From: Halobacillus mangrovi
Lineage (GTDB): Bacteria; Bacillota; Bacilli; Bacillales; Halobacillaceae
Direction of reading: 5' to 3'
Assembly: GCF_002097535.1 (NCBI RefSeq)
Contig: NZ_CP020772.1
Coordinates: forward strand, 124,001-188,000
Length of the DNA: 64,000 nt
Under the pieces are notes generated by a model. It was given only the letters and a program-made list of their open reading frames with translations, had not been told where the DNA came from and did no database searches. Positions within the stretch are counted from its first letter, which is position 1; each line of letters opens with the position of its first letter. The position numbers were made by a program, and so were the translations under genes. Shown one piece after another: positions 44,086 through 55,140 of this stretch.

Positions 44086-45408
44086 TCAGGATGTGCCAAA
44101 GTCTTTCATAGAAAATTGCTGGAACGTTGTATCTTCTTGATTCTTGTATACTTCTTTTCCTGCAATCGTATTGATGATATGGACGTTTCTATGAACCGAC
44201 AACCCTAAGTTCGTAGCTCCAGCTCCATGTGAATGGACAAGATTGGTCAAACTGAAAAAGTAGTGTTCTCGATCATCGTTAAACATAAGCCGATAATCCC
44301 TGGTCATTTTAAACATTTTTTCGTCTTCCCATTCGATCTTTTCTTTATAACGATCCATAAACCAATCTGGGATATGCGGTTTGTAGCCTGTGGCTAAGAC
44401 TACTTTTTCGGTGGCGTACTTGTACTCCACATCTTCCTGCCATTGTTTGCAGTGAAGGACATACCCGTCTTTTTGACCTTCTATTTTCTGGACCTCAGTC
44501 ATTGGCTGAATGAGGACTCGGCTCTCTTTCATTCCAGCCGTGCGATGATAAAGCTTTGTGTACAGCCTTTCCAGCGTTTGAGGATCAATTCCATTACGGA
44601 GCGGCTTTAACGTATCCAGCGTCTGTTTTCTCTGCTCAAATTCTAGATTATGAAAATAATCCACGTAATCCGGTGTAAAGGCTTCTTGAGCGAACTTTGC
44701 TTTATCAAGCTGAAACAAACCGCCCGTCCGGGTTAATAACGTCAGCTTCATGTCCTGGCGCTCCTGTTCCTCCAGCAAATCAAGGAAAACTTCAAGTGCA
44801 CTCTGACCAGAACCGATCACTGTTACATGTTTCGATTTAAGCAGATGTTGTTTTTCAAATAAATATCGACTGGAATGCATGACATCTTCATTAGGAAGTC
44901 CATCCATTCCCTCAAGAACCACTGGGTCATTCCCTGTTCCCAGCACAACATGTTTTGCATTAAAGTATTTTGTCTCTCCTGTCACCTTTTCCATGACGAC
45001 TACTTCGTAATGCGGGGTATCTGCTTCTTTTTTATCGACGACATCTACCACTCGATGACCAAAGTGTAGACTATTTAACTGTCCAGCTACCCATTGCAGA
45101 TAGTGGTTATACTCTTGTCTCGGCACCTCAAAGTGACGATGGAAAAAGAAAGGGAACATCCGGTTATGTTCATGCAGGTAATTCATAAATGTATAGGGAC
45201 TTTTCGGATCCGCGAAAGTTGCCAAATCTGCAAGGAACGGGACCTGGAGATCCATTTTTTCAATTAGCATTCCAGGATGCCACATGAATTCAGGCGTCTT
45301 TTCAAAAAAGAGCGCATCAAGTTCATCCGTTTGGTCAATCAATGCGGCTAGTCCAAGGTTATAGGGGCCAATTCCGATTCCTATCACATCATATAGTTGT
45401 CTTTGCAT
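44086..45408 (-). CDS. FAD/NADPH-dependent amino-acid or diamine N-hydroxylase (IucD/SidA/PvdA family)
   Basis: A 440-residue flavin monooxygenase with the FAD loop GIGIGPYNLGLAAL at 10-23, substrate-site LQVPFLADLATFADPKSPYT, the NADPH loop VTVIGSGQSALEVFLDLLEE near 200 and the terminal ATGYKPHIPDWF. The family N-hydroxylates lysine, ornithine or diamines as the first step of hydroxamate siderophore synthesis. No NIS synthetase, NRPS or siderophore uptake gene is nearby. It lies 22 bases downstream of an NCS2 permease. ATG at 45408 is chosen with GAGGAAG eight bases upstream. Exact substrate is unknown. Confidence 0.87.
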   Translation of the reverse strand: MQRQLYDVIGIGIGPYNLGLAALIDQTDELDALFFEKTPEFMWHPGMLIEKMDLQVPFLADLATFADPKSPYTFMNYLHEHNRMFPFFFHRHFEVPRQEYNHYLQWVAGQLNSLHFGHRVVDVVDKKEADTPHYEVVVMEKVTGETKYFNAKHVVLGTGNDPVVLEGMDGLPNEDVMHSSRYLFEKQHLLKSKHVTVIGSGQSALEVFLDLLEEQERQDMKLTLLTRTGGLFQLDKAKFAQEAFTPDYVDYFHNLEFEQRKQTLDTLKPLRNGIDPQTLERLYTKLYHRTAGMKESRVLIQPMTEVQKIEGQKDGYVLHCKQWQEDVEYKYATEKVVLATGYKPHIPDWFMDRYKEKIEWEDEKMFKMTRDYRLMFNDDREHYFFSLTNLVHSHGAGATNLGLSVHRNVHIINTIAGKEVYKNQEDTTFQQFSMKDFGTS

Positions 45409-45430
45409 TGCGATCACTTCCTCTATATCT

Positions 45431-46732
45431 TCACGTTTTCGACTCTTTCCAAAGCTGTTCCATGATGATGACCAATACCGTTCCGACTAATAATCCGTTA
45501 CTCATTAAATTTTGTACAATCCCAGGCATCCCCTTGAACACCTCAGCAGGAAGAAACATAAGTCCAATTCCTAGTAAAAATGAGATGCACAAGATGGTTA
45601 ACCTTCGCTCATCCAATGTTTCACTGGCAATGTTACTGATTCCAAGCCCCATGAGCTGCACAAAGGTAGCAAGCAGCGCAGCATTGGCAACTGGCGAAGG
45701 GATTCCTGAAATAAGGGCGACCAGAGATGGAAAGAAAGCAATGATTATTAATAAGGCAGATGCATATAAAAATGGCGCTTTCTTCTTTTGACCTGTTAAA
45801 TGGATGAAACCCGAGGACGAGGCCAACGGCACATTAGCAATCGATGAAAACATCGCTGATATTCCATGGGTTATACCTAAAAAGCTGCTTCCCTGATTGA
45901 TCTGATTGTAAGAGTAGGAAGGCTTGCCATATATTGAGTGGCTGACCGCTACCACAGAAGCCACGATATTAGACAAAAGAATGACAGCCGTAATAAAAGC
46001 CAGCGGTACAATCCCCCACTCGAAGTGAGGGGTGCCCCACGCCAGCCAATCTGGGGCAGATATGAAGGACGATTCCCCTCCACTTTCATTCGTGCTCCCT
46101 ACCCAGCCTATGTATAATAACCAGCCTACACTGATGCCGATTAAAACGGCGTAGCTTTTCAGCCAGCCTTTTGCAAAAACAGATAAACCAAGTACGGTGC
46201 AAAACGTTACAAACGCTACAGCAGTCTGATCTACATGAATAGCCTCTACCTGTTGCTGTATGCCAAGCATTCCTTGCAAAAAGGTTCCGCTTAATTGCAC
46301 GGTTAGTAAAAATAAAAAAGCCCCCGTCACTAACGGAGTGAATACAAATAACACCCGATGGGCTAATCGAAAAACCCCGAACACTAGTAAAAATACTCCT
46401 GTAAGAATCATAGCCGCTTCAAGGGTTTGAAGCGTTTCTATGTAGCTTTTTCCCGGTTGAGCACCAGAATAAGCCATCACAGCAAAAATACTAATCCATA
46501 ATCCGGCCGGTCCTTCCATGATGGGCAGCTTGTGGCCGAACATTCCTTGTAGAAAGGAAGTGATGCCTACGACAAAAAATGTACGCTGCATCAGCCCTGA
46601 CACCTGGGTGAAGCTTAAATCAAAGATTGAACCAATGACTATGGGAAGCGCCACAGAACTGGCTAATAAAAAGACGAACCATTGGGTTGTCTCTAATGTG
46701 GCCCCTAGAAAAGATTGATTTGGTTCCTTCAT
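45431..46732 (-). CDS. NCS2-family nucleobase permease (purine/uracil/xanthine type)
   Basis: The 433-residue membrane protein has about 12-14 helices. The N-terminus ETTQWFVFLLASSVALPIVI, MEGPAGLWISIFAVM near 72 and SSGFIHLTG near 309 match nucleobase:cation symporter-2 proteins, closest to poorly studied purine permeases such as YwdJ. Ligand is unknown. GGTGG precedes the ATG. It is the promoter-proximal gene of a two-gene unit with the N-hydroxylase. A parS site lies about 105 bp upstream. Confidence 0.87.
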   Translation of the reverse strand: MKEPNQSFLGATLETTQWFVFLLASSVALPIVIGSIFDLSFTQVSGLMQRTFFVVGITSFLQGMFGHKLPIMEGPAGLWISIFAVMAYSGAQPGKSYIETLQTLEAAMILTGVFLLVFGVFRLAHRVLFVFTPLVTGAFLFLLTVQLSGTFLQGMLGIQQQVEAIHVDQTAVAFVTFCTVLGLSVFAKGWLKSYAVLIGISVGWLLYIGWVGSTNESGGESSFISAPDWLAWGTPHFEWGIVPLAFITAVILLSNIVASVVAVSHSIYGKPSYSYNQINQGSSFLGITHGISAMFSSIANVPLASSSGFIHLTGQKKKAPFLYASALLIIIAFFPSLVALISGIPSPVANAALLATFVQLMGLGISNIASETLDERRLTILCISFLLGIGLMFLPAEVFKGMPGIVQNLMSNGLLVGTVLVIIMEQLWKESKT

Positions 46733-46998
46733 GTTGTTCCACCTGCAATTTCTCTCTATATATCATTTCCTGAATTATCCTCTTCATCCTAACACAGCCC
46801 CTCTCAGGCTGTCTCTATTGAAATATCGGTCGTTCTGTTTCACGTGGAACAACTTTCCATAGCCCTACAAAGCGAAGGCGTTTATCTTATGTTCACTCGT
46901 TTTATTACGCTAATGTGTTCTTTTATAGTGAATAATTTCCATACCTCGTATGCAGTAATAGATAAGTATAAATAAATGAAAATTTTTGTGATTGATTA
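46733..46998. other. intergenic region holding parS
   Basis: Between the permease and the acsA terminator. It holds the parS site (see its entry) and a small hairpin, ACAGCC and GGCTGT, at about 46795-46814 upstream of the permease. I see no confident -35/-10 pair. Confidence 0.5.
46836..46851. promoter_or_regulatory. parS centromere site for ParB/Spo0J
   Basis: TGTTTCACGTGGAACA on the plus strand reads TGTTCCACGTGAAACA on the minus strand, a perfect 16/16 match to the B. subtilis parS consensus. It is intergenic. ParB (Spo0J) would nucleate and spread here to organise and segregate the origin region with Soj and SMC. Confidence 0.9.
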
Positions 46999-47034
46999 AA
47001 AAAGAAGCGTACCCATATGGCACGCTTCTTTCGG
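46999..47034 (-). terminator. terminator of acsA
   Basis: Minus strand AGAAGCGT, 11-base partly paired loop, ACGCTTCT, TTTTTT, directly after the acsA stop. Confidence 0.9.
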
Positions 47035-47039
47035 CTTTA

Positions 47040-48749
47040 TTATTCTTCTAGTGTAGAAGTGTCTCCTGTCGGCAACCCGAGTTCCCACGACTTCAGCAAG
47101 CGGCGCATAATTTTACCACTACGAGTTTTTGGAATCGTATCTTTAATTTCGATCTCTCTTGGAGCCGCATGAGCACTTAGACCTTTTTTCACGAATTGGC
47201 GGATATCTTCTAACAGATCATCTGATTCCTGATATCCTTCGCGGAGTGTAATGAAGGCTTTGATGATCTCTCCGCGCTCTGGATCCGGTTTTCCGATGAC
47301 TCCAGCTTCCGCCACAGCTTCGTGTTCAATCAGCTTACTTTCTACTTCAAAAGGACCGACACGTTCACCAGAAGTATTGATGACATCATCAAGACGTCCC
47401 TGGAACCAGAAATAACCGTCTTCATCCATATAGGCACTGTCACCTGAGACATACCATCCATTCAAGAAGTAACTTTCATACTTTCCTGGATTATTCCAGA
47501 TGGCACGCATCATAGATGGCCAGCCTTCTTTAATCGCTAGATTCCCCATTTGATTCGGCGGCAGCTCATTACCATCGTTATCGACGATTGCAGCCACGAT
47601 CCCAGGGAATGGTTTACCCATGGAACCTGGTCGCATATCCATCGCAGGGTAGTTACAAATGAGCATACCTCCCGTTTCTGTCATCCACCACGTATCGTGG
47701 ATGCGCAGGTCAAAGGCTTCCAGTCCCCATGTGATGACCTCTGGATTTAATGGTTCCCCAACACTCAATACGTGTCGTAATGAGGATAAATCATGTTTCT
47801 GGGCAACCTCAGCCCCAGCACTCAATAATTTTCTGAACGCAGTCGGTGCTGAATACCAAACGGAAACATTCTTCTCAGCAATAGTTCCGTACCAATCATC
47901 TGGACTGAAACGGCCACCGCGAATTACGTTCGTTACTCCATTCAGCCATGGTGCAAAAATTCCGTAGCTAGTTCCCGTTACCCAGCCTGGGTCAGCTGTA
48001 CACCAGTACACATCATCTTCTTTCAAATCAAGCACCCATTTTCCTGTCTGGTAATGCTGGATCATCGCATTATGAACATGGTAAACCCCTTTTGGCTTAC
48101 CCGTAGAACCAGAGGTATAATGAAGCAGCATTCCATCTTCGAGGTCTACCCATTCAATTTCAAAGTCCTCGGAAGCATCTTTCATTTCTTCATCGAATGA
48201 AATGTAGTTGCCTGGAGCATCTCCTCCAACGAGAACAATCTGTTTTAAAGCGGGCAGGTCATCGACTGGAACACGCTCCAATAACTCAGGAGTCGTAACC
48301 AGCATCGTTGCTTCACTATCTTCCAAGCGATCCCGTACAGCTTGTTCCATGAAAGCTTCAAAAAGTGGACCAGCAATGGCACCGACTTTTAAAATACCGA
48401 AAAAGGTTGCATAAAATTCCGGACTTCTAGGCATGAACAAGAAAACACGGTCGCCTTTTTCTATATTGTGTTTCTTCAATACATTCGCAAACTTATTACT
48501 TTGCACTTTCAAATCTTCGAAAGTTAACTCTTCCTCACGGTCAGGTGCTGAATACTTTAACGCTACCTGATTCTTCTTTTGTGGATCTGCGGCATATTTA
48601 TCGATTGCTTCATAAGCAATGTTTACCTTGCCTGTTTCACTCCACGTAAAATTACTTTTCACTTCATCCCAATTGAAATGGTTGTACGTTTCTTTGTAGT
48701 TTTCCATGTTGTGATTGCCTGATCTTGCTGGTATTGGTTGCATATCCAT
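47040..48749 (-). CDS. acsA: acetyl-CoA synthetase
   Basis: The 569-residue ANL-superfamily enzyme activates acetate through acetyl-AMP. LLHYTSGSTGKPKGVYHVH near 210 is the AMP loop, WWMTETGG near 355 the A5 motif, SGDSAYMDEDGYFWFQGR near 440 the A7-A8 hinge, and TRSGKIMRRLLK near 545 the catalytic Lys that AcuA-type acetylases modify. Length and sequence match B. subtilis AcsA. AGGTGA precedes the ATG. A cre site just upstream suggests CcpA repression on glucose. acuABC are not adjacent here. Confidence 0.96.
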   Translation of the reverse strand: MDMQPIPARSGNHNMENYKETYNHFNWDEVKSNFTWSETGKVNIAYEAIDKYAADPQKKNQVALKYSAPDREEELTFEDLKVQSNKFANVLKKHNIEKGDRVFLFMPRSPEFYATFFGILKVGAIAGPLFEAFMEQAVRDRLEDSEATMLVTTPELLERVPVDDLPALKQIVLVGGDAPGNYISFDEEMKDASEDFEIEWVDLEDGMLLHYTSGSTGKPKGVYHVHNAMIQHYQTGKWVLDLKEDDVYWCTADPGWVTGTSYGIFAPWLNGVTNVIRGGRFSPDDWYGTIAEKNVSVWYSAPTAFRKLLSAGAEVAQKHDLSSLRHVLSVGEPLNPEVITWGLEAFDLRIHDTWWMTETGGMLICNYPAMDMRPGSMGKPFPGIVAAIVDNDGNELPPNQMGNLAIKEGWPSMMRAIWNNPGKYESYFLNGWYVSGDSAYMDEDGYFWFQGRLDDVINTSGERVGPFEVESKLIEHEAVAEAGVIGKPDPERGEIIKAFITLREGYQESDDLLEDIRQFVKKGLSAHAAPREIEIKDTIPKTRSGKIMRRLLKSWELGLPTGDTSTLEE

Positions 48750-49735: not shown

Positions 49736-50548
49736 TTGAGCGAGAAAAAGGTCATTGAGCAAACGGCCACGCCTCAAACCTTAGAAAGCCTGAAACAAAA
49801 CTTATATAACTTAGGTATAAAGAAAGGAGATATCATTCTCGTCCACGCTTCCATGAAAGCGATCGGTTGGACAAGCGGAGGACCGCAAGCTGTCATCCAA
49901 GCCTTAATAGACACCATTACAAAGGAAGGAACGTTAGTGTTCCAAACTCATTCACCGACGCTCTCAGATCCTTTCGAATGGGAGAACCCACCTGTACCAG
50001 AGGAATGGCATGAAACAATAAGAAATACGATGCCTGCATTCGATCCAGATAAGACTCCTTCTACCTATCTAGGCGTACTTCCTGAATTGTTTCGTAAGTT
50101 TCCAGGTGTTTCCCGCAGTTATCACCCTGCTTTTTCTATATCAGCCTGGGGGAAAGAAGCTGAGCGAATGACAGAAAGACACGAATTGTCTTATCCTTTG
50201 AGCGACACATCTCCACTCGGTCAAGCCTATGAGAGAGAGGCAAAAATCTTGTTACTTGGCGTAGGATACGATTCGAACACTAGCTTTCATTTATCGGAAT
50301 ACCGCTCCCATGTGCGTAAAGAAAAGACAAGAGGTGCTCCGTTAGCGGAAGAAGGGAAGACACAATGGCTCACCTACGCGGATGTCGATATTGATGATGA
50401 GCCTTTTGAAAAAATCGGCGCAGAATTCGAACAAGCTTACGTGGTCCAAAAAGGGAAAGTAGGGAATGCAGATGCCAGTCTATTTTCCATGCGAGAATCT
50501 GTTGATTTCGCTACTAAATGGTTAAAAACGAACCTTTCTTCACAATAA
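49736..50548 (+). CDS. AAC(3)-family aminoglycoside N-acetyltransferase-like protein (YokD-like)
   Basis: The 270-residue protein has the antibiotic acetyltransferase fold: GDIILVHASMKAIGWTSGGP near 32, GTLVFQTHS near 69, RSYHPAFSISAWG near 126 and LLLGVGYDSNTSFHLSEYRS near 177, with the catalytic His. Chromosomal Bacillus homologues (YokD) exist without proven resistance. It should not be called a resistance gene from sequence alone; the natural acceptor may be another amine. The TTG start follows AAAGGAGG at good spacing. Confidence 0.85.
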   Translation: MSEKKVIEQTATPQTLESLKQNLYNLGIKKGDIILVHASMKAIGWTSGGPQAVIQALIDTITKEGTLVFQTHSPTLSDPFEWENPPVPEEWHETIRNTMPAFDPDKTPSTYLGVLPELFRKFPGVSRSYHPAFSISAWGKEAERMTERHELSYPLSDTSPLGQAYEREAKILLLGVGYDSNTSFHLSEYRSHVRKEKTRGAPLAEEGKTQWLTYADVDIDDEPFEKIGAEFEQAYVVQKGKVGNADASLFSMRESVDFATKWLKTNLSSQ

Positions 50549-54466: not shown

Positions 54467-55140
54467 TGAACGCTTCTCCTTTATGGCTTTCTCTTAAAAT
54501 AGCTACGATTGCTACCATCATCGTTTTCATAGGAGGAATCCTATTATCAAGACTTATTTCTCGTAAATTATTTCCCGGGAAAAGTATCGTTGAATCTATC
54601 CTATTACTTCCATTGGTTTTACCTCCGACAGTAGTGGGTTTCGGACTGCTCTATCTGTTTGGTAAAAATGGATGGATAGGCAAGTGGCTGCTGGAATGGT
54701 TTGATCTTCAAGTGGTTTTTACGTGGACAGGAGCTGTCATTGCTGCGATCGTCGTCTCTTTTCCCTTAATGTATCAAAGTGCAGCGGCCGCCTTTCAAAA
54801 CTACGATCCTAATATCGAAAATGCAGCGTTAACCATGGGTGCTTCAAAACTTAAAGTCTTTTTCACGATATCGCTCCCCCTTGCCTGGCCTGGGCTTCTG
54901 GCGGGTCTCGTCTTAACATTTGCTCGTGCACTAGGCGAATTTGGAGCAACGCTTATGATTGCCGGCTATATTCCGGGAGAAACCGACACCATTCCCCTTG
55001 CTATATACTTTGCTGTAGAAGCGGGACGAATGGAACAAGCCCAAATGTGGGTGATTGTCATTCTTTGTCTTGGATTTAGTTCGGTGTTATGGCTGAATTG
55101 GTGGACGAAAAGAAAAATATCACCCTATCAAAGAGACTAA
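54463..55140 (+). CDS. modB: molybdate ABC transporter permease
   Basis: The 225-residue permease has five to six helices and the cytoplasmic EAA loop ENAALTMGASKLKVFFTISL near 127-147 that docks with ModC, then GEFGATLMIAGYIPGETDT. Translation is coupled to modA. A near-perfect Noc-binding palindrome lies inside this gene at 54570-54583. Confidence 0.94.
   Translation: MMNASPLWLSLKIATIATIIVFIGGILLSRLISRKLFPGKSIVESILLLPLVLPPTVVGFGLLYLFGKNGWIGKWLLEWFDLQVVFTWTGAVIAAIVVSFPLMYQSAAAAFQNYDPNIENAALTMGASKLKVFFTISLPLAWPGLLAGLVLTFARALGEFGATLMIAGYIPGETDTIPLAIYFAVEAGRMEQAQMWVIVILCLGFSSVLWLNWWTKRKISPYQRD
54570..54583. promoter_or_regulatory. candidate Noc-binding site inside modB
   Basis: ATTTCCCGGGAAAA matches the 14-bp Noc-binding palindrome ATTTCCCGGGAAAT at 13 of 14 bases, with a perfect 12-bp palindromic core. 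Noc bound at such sites prevents division over the nucleoid. Confidence 0.6.

Follow-up and report, generated by a model that had tools for sequence, protein, structure and literature searches.

A conserved origin-proximal parS site beside acsA in Halobacillus mangrovi, a genome in which no soj was found

ParB proteins load at parS sites, spread on the adjacent DNA in a CTP-dependent manner and recruit Smc, as described in excerpts of PMC7053999, PMC8494293 and PMC9564211, and the idealised parS consensus is TGTTTCACGTGAAACA according to a passage of PMC7383237. In Bacillus subtilis, where the ParB protein is Spo0J, eight parS sites over about 0.75 Mb are given in a passage of PMC8357415 and ten sites in one of PMC7022226. 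ParA (Soj) is bound by the N-terminal peptide of ParB, which also stimulates its ATPase, while Streptococcus pneumoniae and Staphylococcus aureus have ParB and parS but lack a ParA homologue (both points from excerpts of PMC7333895). The system of Halobacillus mangrovi described here uses the 16-bp palindrome of B. subtilis, and as in that species multiple sites surround oriC and spo0J and noc lie near it; the system differs in that there are four sites with no more than one mismatch instead of eight, and in that no soj was found. The genes neighbouring parS presumably also differ between the two genomes.

The window is the whole stretch of DNA that was analysed, 64,000 nucleotides long, and corresponds to positions 124001-188000 of the single 4,142,697-base contig (C1). 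Its only place matching parS at up to three mismatches is 46836-46851, where the minus strand reads TGTTCCACGTGAAACA and is matched at all 16 bp; the same place read on the plus strand is a two-mismatch match. This parS site, supported by the exact 16-bp match and by a conserved footprint, is a palindrome of the chromosomal parS type. Its C form is one that we take to be a B. subtilis parS. The preliminary description had claimed an exact match to B. subtilis parS, which stands for the 16 of 16 bp in the window, with the reservation that TGTTCCACGTGAAACA is one base off the published palindrome TGTTTCACGTGAAACA. Shuffled windows contain on average 0.56 matches at up to three mismatches, and two matches were reached in 13 of 100 shuffles. 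The three-mismatch count alone is not significant in the window; the exactness, the clustering and the conservation of the site are.

In the complete genome, dnaA lies at 201193-202515 on the minus strand, and a scan with TGTTTCACGTGAAACA gave four sites with one mismatch or none, at 170836 (the window site), 218723, 244138 and 437714. Their offsets from dnaA are +31.7, -16.2, -41.6 and -235.2 kb (plus meaning downstream of dnaA), so that all four are within 236 kb of this gene. The origin clustering that had been anticipated is thus borne out, from -235 to +32 kb, and the even scatter of equally good matches around the chromosome that would have spoken against it was not seen. The same scan gave two sites with two mismatches, both distant from dnaA (1183948 and 2359717), and 26 places with three. 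When TGTTCCACGTGAAACA was used as the pattern, four further two-mismatch places appeared, against two in the reversed control. One of the four is at 260182 (about -58 kb); the three others are distant from dnaA and count against the parS reading. A chance match to parS is nevertheless extremely improbable. Three-mismatch palindromes are common, making up 26 of 32 places in the genome-wide list, and the reversed control has 14 places in total, but the four sites with one mismatch or fewer all lie near dnaA and the place is conserved in relatives, and on this conservation and genome-wide clustering the chance reading was rejected.

Among 22 Halobacillus genomes, 88 parS-like sites were tabulated (at most one mismatch, or exact GTTTCACATGAAAC), of which 73 are on the contig of dnaA and 69 of these within 250 kb of it; the other 15 are on different contigs and cannot be placed relative to dnaA. 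The other three H. mangrovi sites appear uneven in their conservation of position. Among 3-kb loci of 34 relatives, which were brought in by parS-like matches and unevenly chosen, so that the counts are a guide only, purA and a LOG-like ORF (both named by eye), which flank the -42 kb site, recur together in 5 of 34; the two flanks of the spo0J-proximal site recur in 2 of 34 and those of the -235 kb site in none.

Two ParB-family genes are found at 216.7-218.7 kb of the contig, the first being Noc and the second Spo0J. Specificity residues, positioned relative to the GKS anchor and not by alignment, are R173, G201 and R204 in Spo0J and Q173 and R201 in Noc (numbering of PMC7383237), which is as expected, on sequence, for binders of parS and NBS, respectively. 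A candidate cognate ParB with parS-type residues (R173/G201, against Q173/R201 of Noc) is therefore encoded in the same genome. The site at 46836-46851 carries parS bases and not the NBS bases of TATTTCCCGGGAAATA-like sites. The only NBS-like place in the window, ATTTCCCGGGAAAA at 54570-54583 with one mismatch, is within the modB reading frame.

The parS site is located in the intergenic region between acsA and the NCS2 gene (46733-47039, no strand assigned). The acetate--CoA ligase gene acsA (47040-48749, minus strand), which matches NF003313 above its cut-off, is the conserved near-side neighbour of parS. The NCS2-family purine/pyrimidine permease gene (45431-46732, minus strand, NF037981) varies between genera, and beyond it the conserved neighbour on the far side is a gene for a flavin-dependent N-monooxygenase-like protein (44086-45417, minus strand), whose best family match, TIGR04439, scores 353 bits and does not reach the cut-off of 700. 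An extended -10-like element of the NCS2 gene, TGTTAGGAT at 46786-46794 on the minus strand, lies 41 bp downstream of parS and was assigned by pattern match and conservation. A sigma-70 promoter scan of 46700-47060 gave a single weak match, a yield not above that of shuffled sequence, at a place other than this element. An ORF at 49736-50548 resembles aminoglycoside 3-N-acetyltransferases (191 bits, family cut-off 270), and a match to it is present in 4 of the 17 named Halobacillus loci.

These 17 loci, whose genes are ordered as in the window, are the Halobacillus members of a set of 21 named loci that have a related permease, and on this basis the window is placed in that genus. Together with the window they provide 18 Halobacillus upstream regions, and each has a site of at most three mismatches ending 46-103 bp upstream of NCS2 (9 sites at one mismatch or fewer, 16 at two or fewer), where first-order Markov resampling predicts 0.03 regions with such a site. 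In the alignment the site stands out against diverged flanks, with 11 of 16 columns invariant and variation at columns 1, 5, 9, 12 and 16. Since two of the named loci (L056 and L058) have three mismatches and three others (L045, L046 and L061) have CACATG as the core, site strength may vary among Halobacillus loci. The loci L045, L046 and L061 are also the three with an extra 1.7-3.2 kb between acsA and NCS2. Four further Halobacillus genomes hold the site in the same gap, with 0 (G010), 2 (G012), 1 (G015) and 2 (G016) mismatches. Conservation at the same position in relatives, proposed earlier as a check, was thus observed, since all 22 Halobacillus records examined carry parS in the acsA-NCS2 gap. 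The site is flanked by acsA, the N-monooxygenase gene and pfpI in 21 of these, the 3-kb locus of G010 showing acsA and NCS2 only, and each of the 17 named loci, like Thalassobacillus, has the genes in the order acsA, NCS2, N-monooxygenase, pfpI, orf42560, yaaH, tadA. The distance from parS to dnaA varies, being about 26-37 kb in most Halobacillus and 50-54 kb in genus g2. In the Halobacillus genome G006 a parS-like site was tabulated at +29.2 kb. In G015 (C1:2225000-2244900, L154) the acsA-NCS2-dnaX block with its parS is about 78 kb from dnaA rather than about 30 kb, and the site is still in place.

The position of the site, which ends 46-103 bp upstream of NCS2 in all 18 regions (46-102 bp in the 17 named loci) and is followed in 15 of them by the extended -10-like element (3 have no match to the pattern), would also suit an operator through which a local regulator controls the permease gene and which only resembles parS; this reading is very unlikely. 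The acsA-monooxygenase region was taken from 12 of 22 family genomes outside Halobacillus, six of them chosen with the knowledge of a parS-like site at about that distance (G022, G027, G028, G030, G033 and G036) and six without it (G024, G025, G026, G031, G034 and G035). A site of at most two mismatches is present in this interval in all 12, including 6 of 6 of the genomes chosen blindly, and acsA, the N-monooxygenase gene and pfpI flank it in each. No NCS2 match was found in the stretch in 11 of these 12 genomes, where parS is kept. Conversely, three NCS2 homologues in other neighbourhoods (L059, L060 and L063) have no site within three mismatches. In Thalassobacillus a three-mismatch site starts 599 bp from NCS2 and 79 bp after the acsA match; the spacing from the end of parS to the -10-like element ranges from 25 to 41 bp in the 15 regions with the pattern; and near-identical sites adjoin unrelated genes around oriC. 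The operator reading is largely refuted by the sites without NCS2 (11 of 12) and by the NCS2 homologues in other neighbourhoods, of which 0 of 3 have a site. Because parS is kept without NCS2 and NCS2 homologues elsewhere are without parS, the site is best read as a feature of the chromosomal locus, with NCS2 as a variable neighbour, and not as an NCS2 operator. It had at first been placed inside an accessory block; that placement is contradicted by its presence in the same gene interval in the 22 Halobacillus records and the 12 other family genomes, and an accessory location was rejected on the conserved acsA, N-monooxygenase and pfpI flanks, NCS2 being the neighbour that varies. The site would accordingly count among ordinary, well-conserved parS sites that dock ParB, at the same spot in related bacteria.

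A parS of this kind could have a second function, in which the ParB complex represses or insulates the adjacent NCS2 promoter; we consider this unlikely. The site adjoins the -10-like element of NCS2, so the arrangement could influence this gene. In Pseudomonas aeruginosa, according to excerpts of PMC5521831, the intergenic sites parS3 and parS4 likewise adjoin promoters and repress them, and in that species the repression by ParB was measured. A parS at -1.6 degrees influences comCDE of S. pneumoniae, 5 kb away, according to a passage of PMC7022226, but the same source describes the B. subtilis genes adjacent to parS as unaffected by loss of Spo0J. Against a second function are also the distance between parS and the -10-like element, which is not fixed, and the adjacency of parS and NCS2, which is absent in 11 of the 12 other family genomes fetched. 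As a parS at a conserved position beside a gene that is present or absent by genus, the locus offers a natural test of the effect of ParB on neighbouring genes.

The gap between noc and spo0J in the H. mangrovi genome (G000; C1:216.7-218.7 kb, L075:12696-14671) is 260 bp, and soj is absent from it. By visual reading of the tabulated positions in 61 genomes, the noc and spo0J matches are separated by 417-432 bp in four (G000, G001, G010 and G019) and by at least 979 bp in the other 57. When Soj of the genus was searched against the G000 genome, only MinD-like (28% over the length), Mrp-like (43% over about 60 residues) and CapB-like (27%) places were obtained, and the four PF13614 matches of this genome, named by eye from ORFs and neighbours, resemble MinD, a CapB-like kinase, an ArsA-like ATPase and Mrp. 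A complete ParABS set, with ParA (Soj) included, was not found in G000, and this strain appears to have lost ParA, the usual partner of ParB. Of 30 loci fetched, 26 encode a full-length Soj (257 aa, 79-100% identity) and that of G000 has none, while a Soj remnant of 36-57 aligned residues is found in G001, G010 and G019, that of G001 being sub-threshold in one search. On the ParB tree of the 30 genomes the soj label needs two changes, and the starred branches force two. These observations point to at least two losses of soj in the genus, the one in G001, G010 and G019 being separate and having left a putative pseudogene remnant. The LG(x)[KR]G stretch of the ParB N-terminus is present in 26 of 26 soj-positive genomes (24 KG, 2 RG) and in none of the 4 soj-negative ones, so each loss of soj is apparently accompanied by decay of the predicted ParA-contact peptide. 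The ParB branch of G000 is also long, 0.18 against 0.02 for its sister G021. From the soj loss and the peptide decay, the parS described here most probably functions in the absence of ParA, like those of S. pneumoniae and S. aureus; the difference from these species is that here soj was lost at least twice within one genus and is kept in 26 of the 30 compared genomes. As ParB and parS are kept throughout, comparing closely related genomes that have or lack ParA could allow the ParA and Smc outputs of parS to be separated. Literature searches for Halobacillus with Spo0J or with parS found no papers, and among the matches listed for Halobacillus and soj none concerned chromosome segregation by its title and the start of its abstract.

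The sequence of the site, its origin clustering, the cognate ParB gene, the conservation independent of NCS2 and the lack of a soj match are the observations behind the mechanism that we hold to be highly probable, that of a chromosomal parS belonging to a four-site oriC set and lying about 32 kb away on the downstream side of dnaA, where Spo0J would form CTP clamps and recruit Smc-ScpAB with the ParA limb missing. Spo0J (ParB) dimers would bind parS at 46836-46851, close as CTP clamps and slide to the adjacent DNA, and the Spo0J-parS complex would recruit Smc-ScpAB, with which the alignment of the arms and the resolution of the origins would begin. We infer binding, clamp loading and Smc recruitment at this site from the protein family. 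To our knowledge smc and scpAB are nearly universal in Bacilli. With no ParA (Soj) limb in this genome, parS probably acts mainly through the recruitment of Smc. It is rather doubtful that in Halobacillus the permease gene lies beside an older parS with its promoter abutting the ParB loading site, and that in ParA-less lineages ParB-parS combines Smc loading with promoter control; if true, the repeated soj loss and the decay of the ParA-contact peptide would mark the release of ParB from ParA.

Sites with the CACATG core are more widespread than the three named loci, since exact GTTTCACATGAAAC is found in 20 of 44 family genomes, with 27 matches against one for the reversed control, and 26 of the 27 are on the contig of dnaA within about 67 kb of this gene. 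A clade-specific shift towards this core was considered at first; the CACATG sites are now read as a probable ordinary parS variant and not as a new specificity. The CACATG core is asymmetric, and examples of it are found in G004 at C3:59363, 90703 and 92942.
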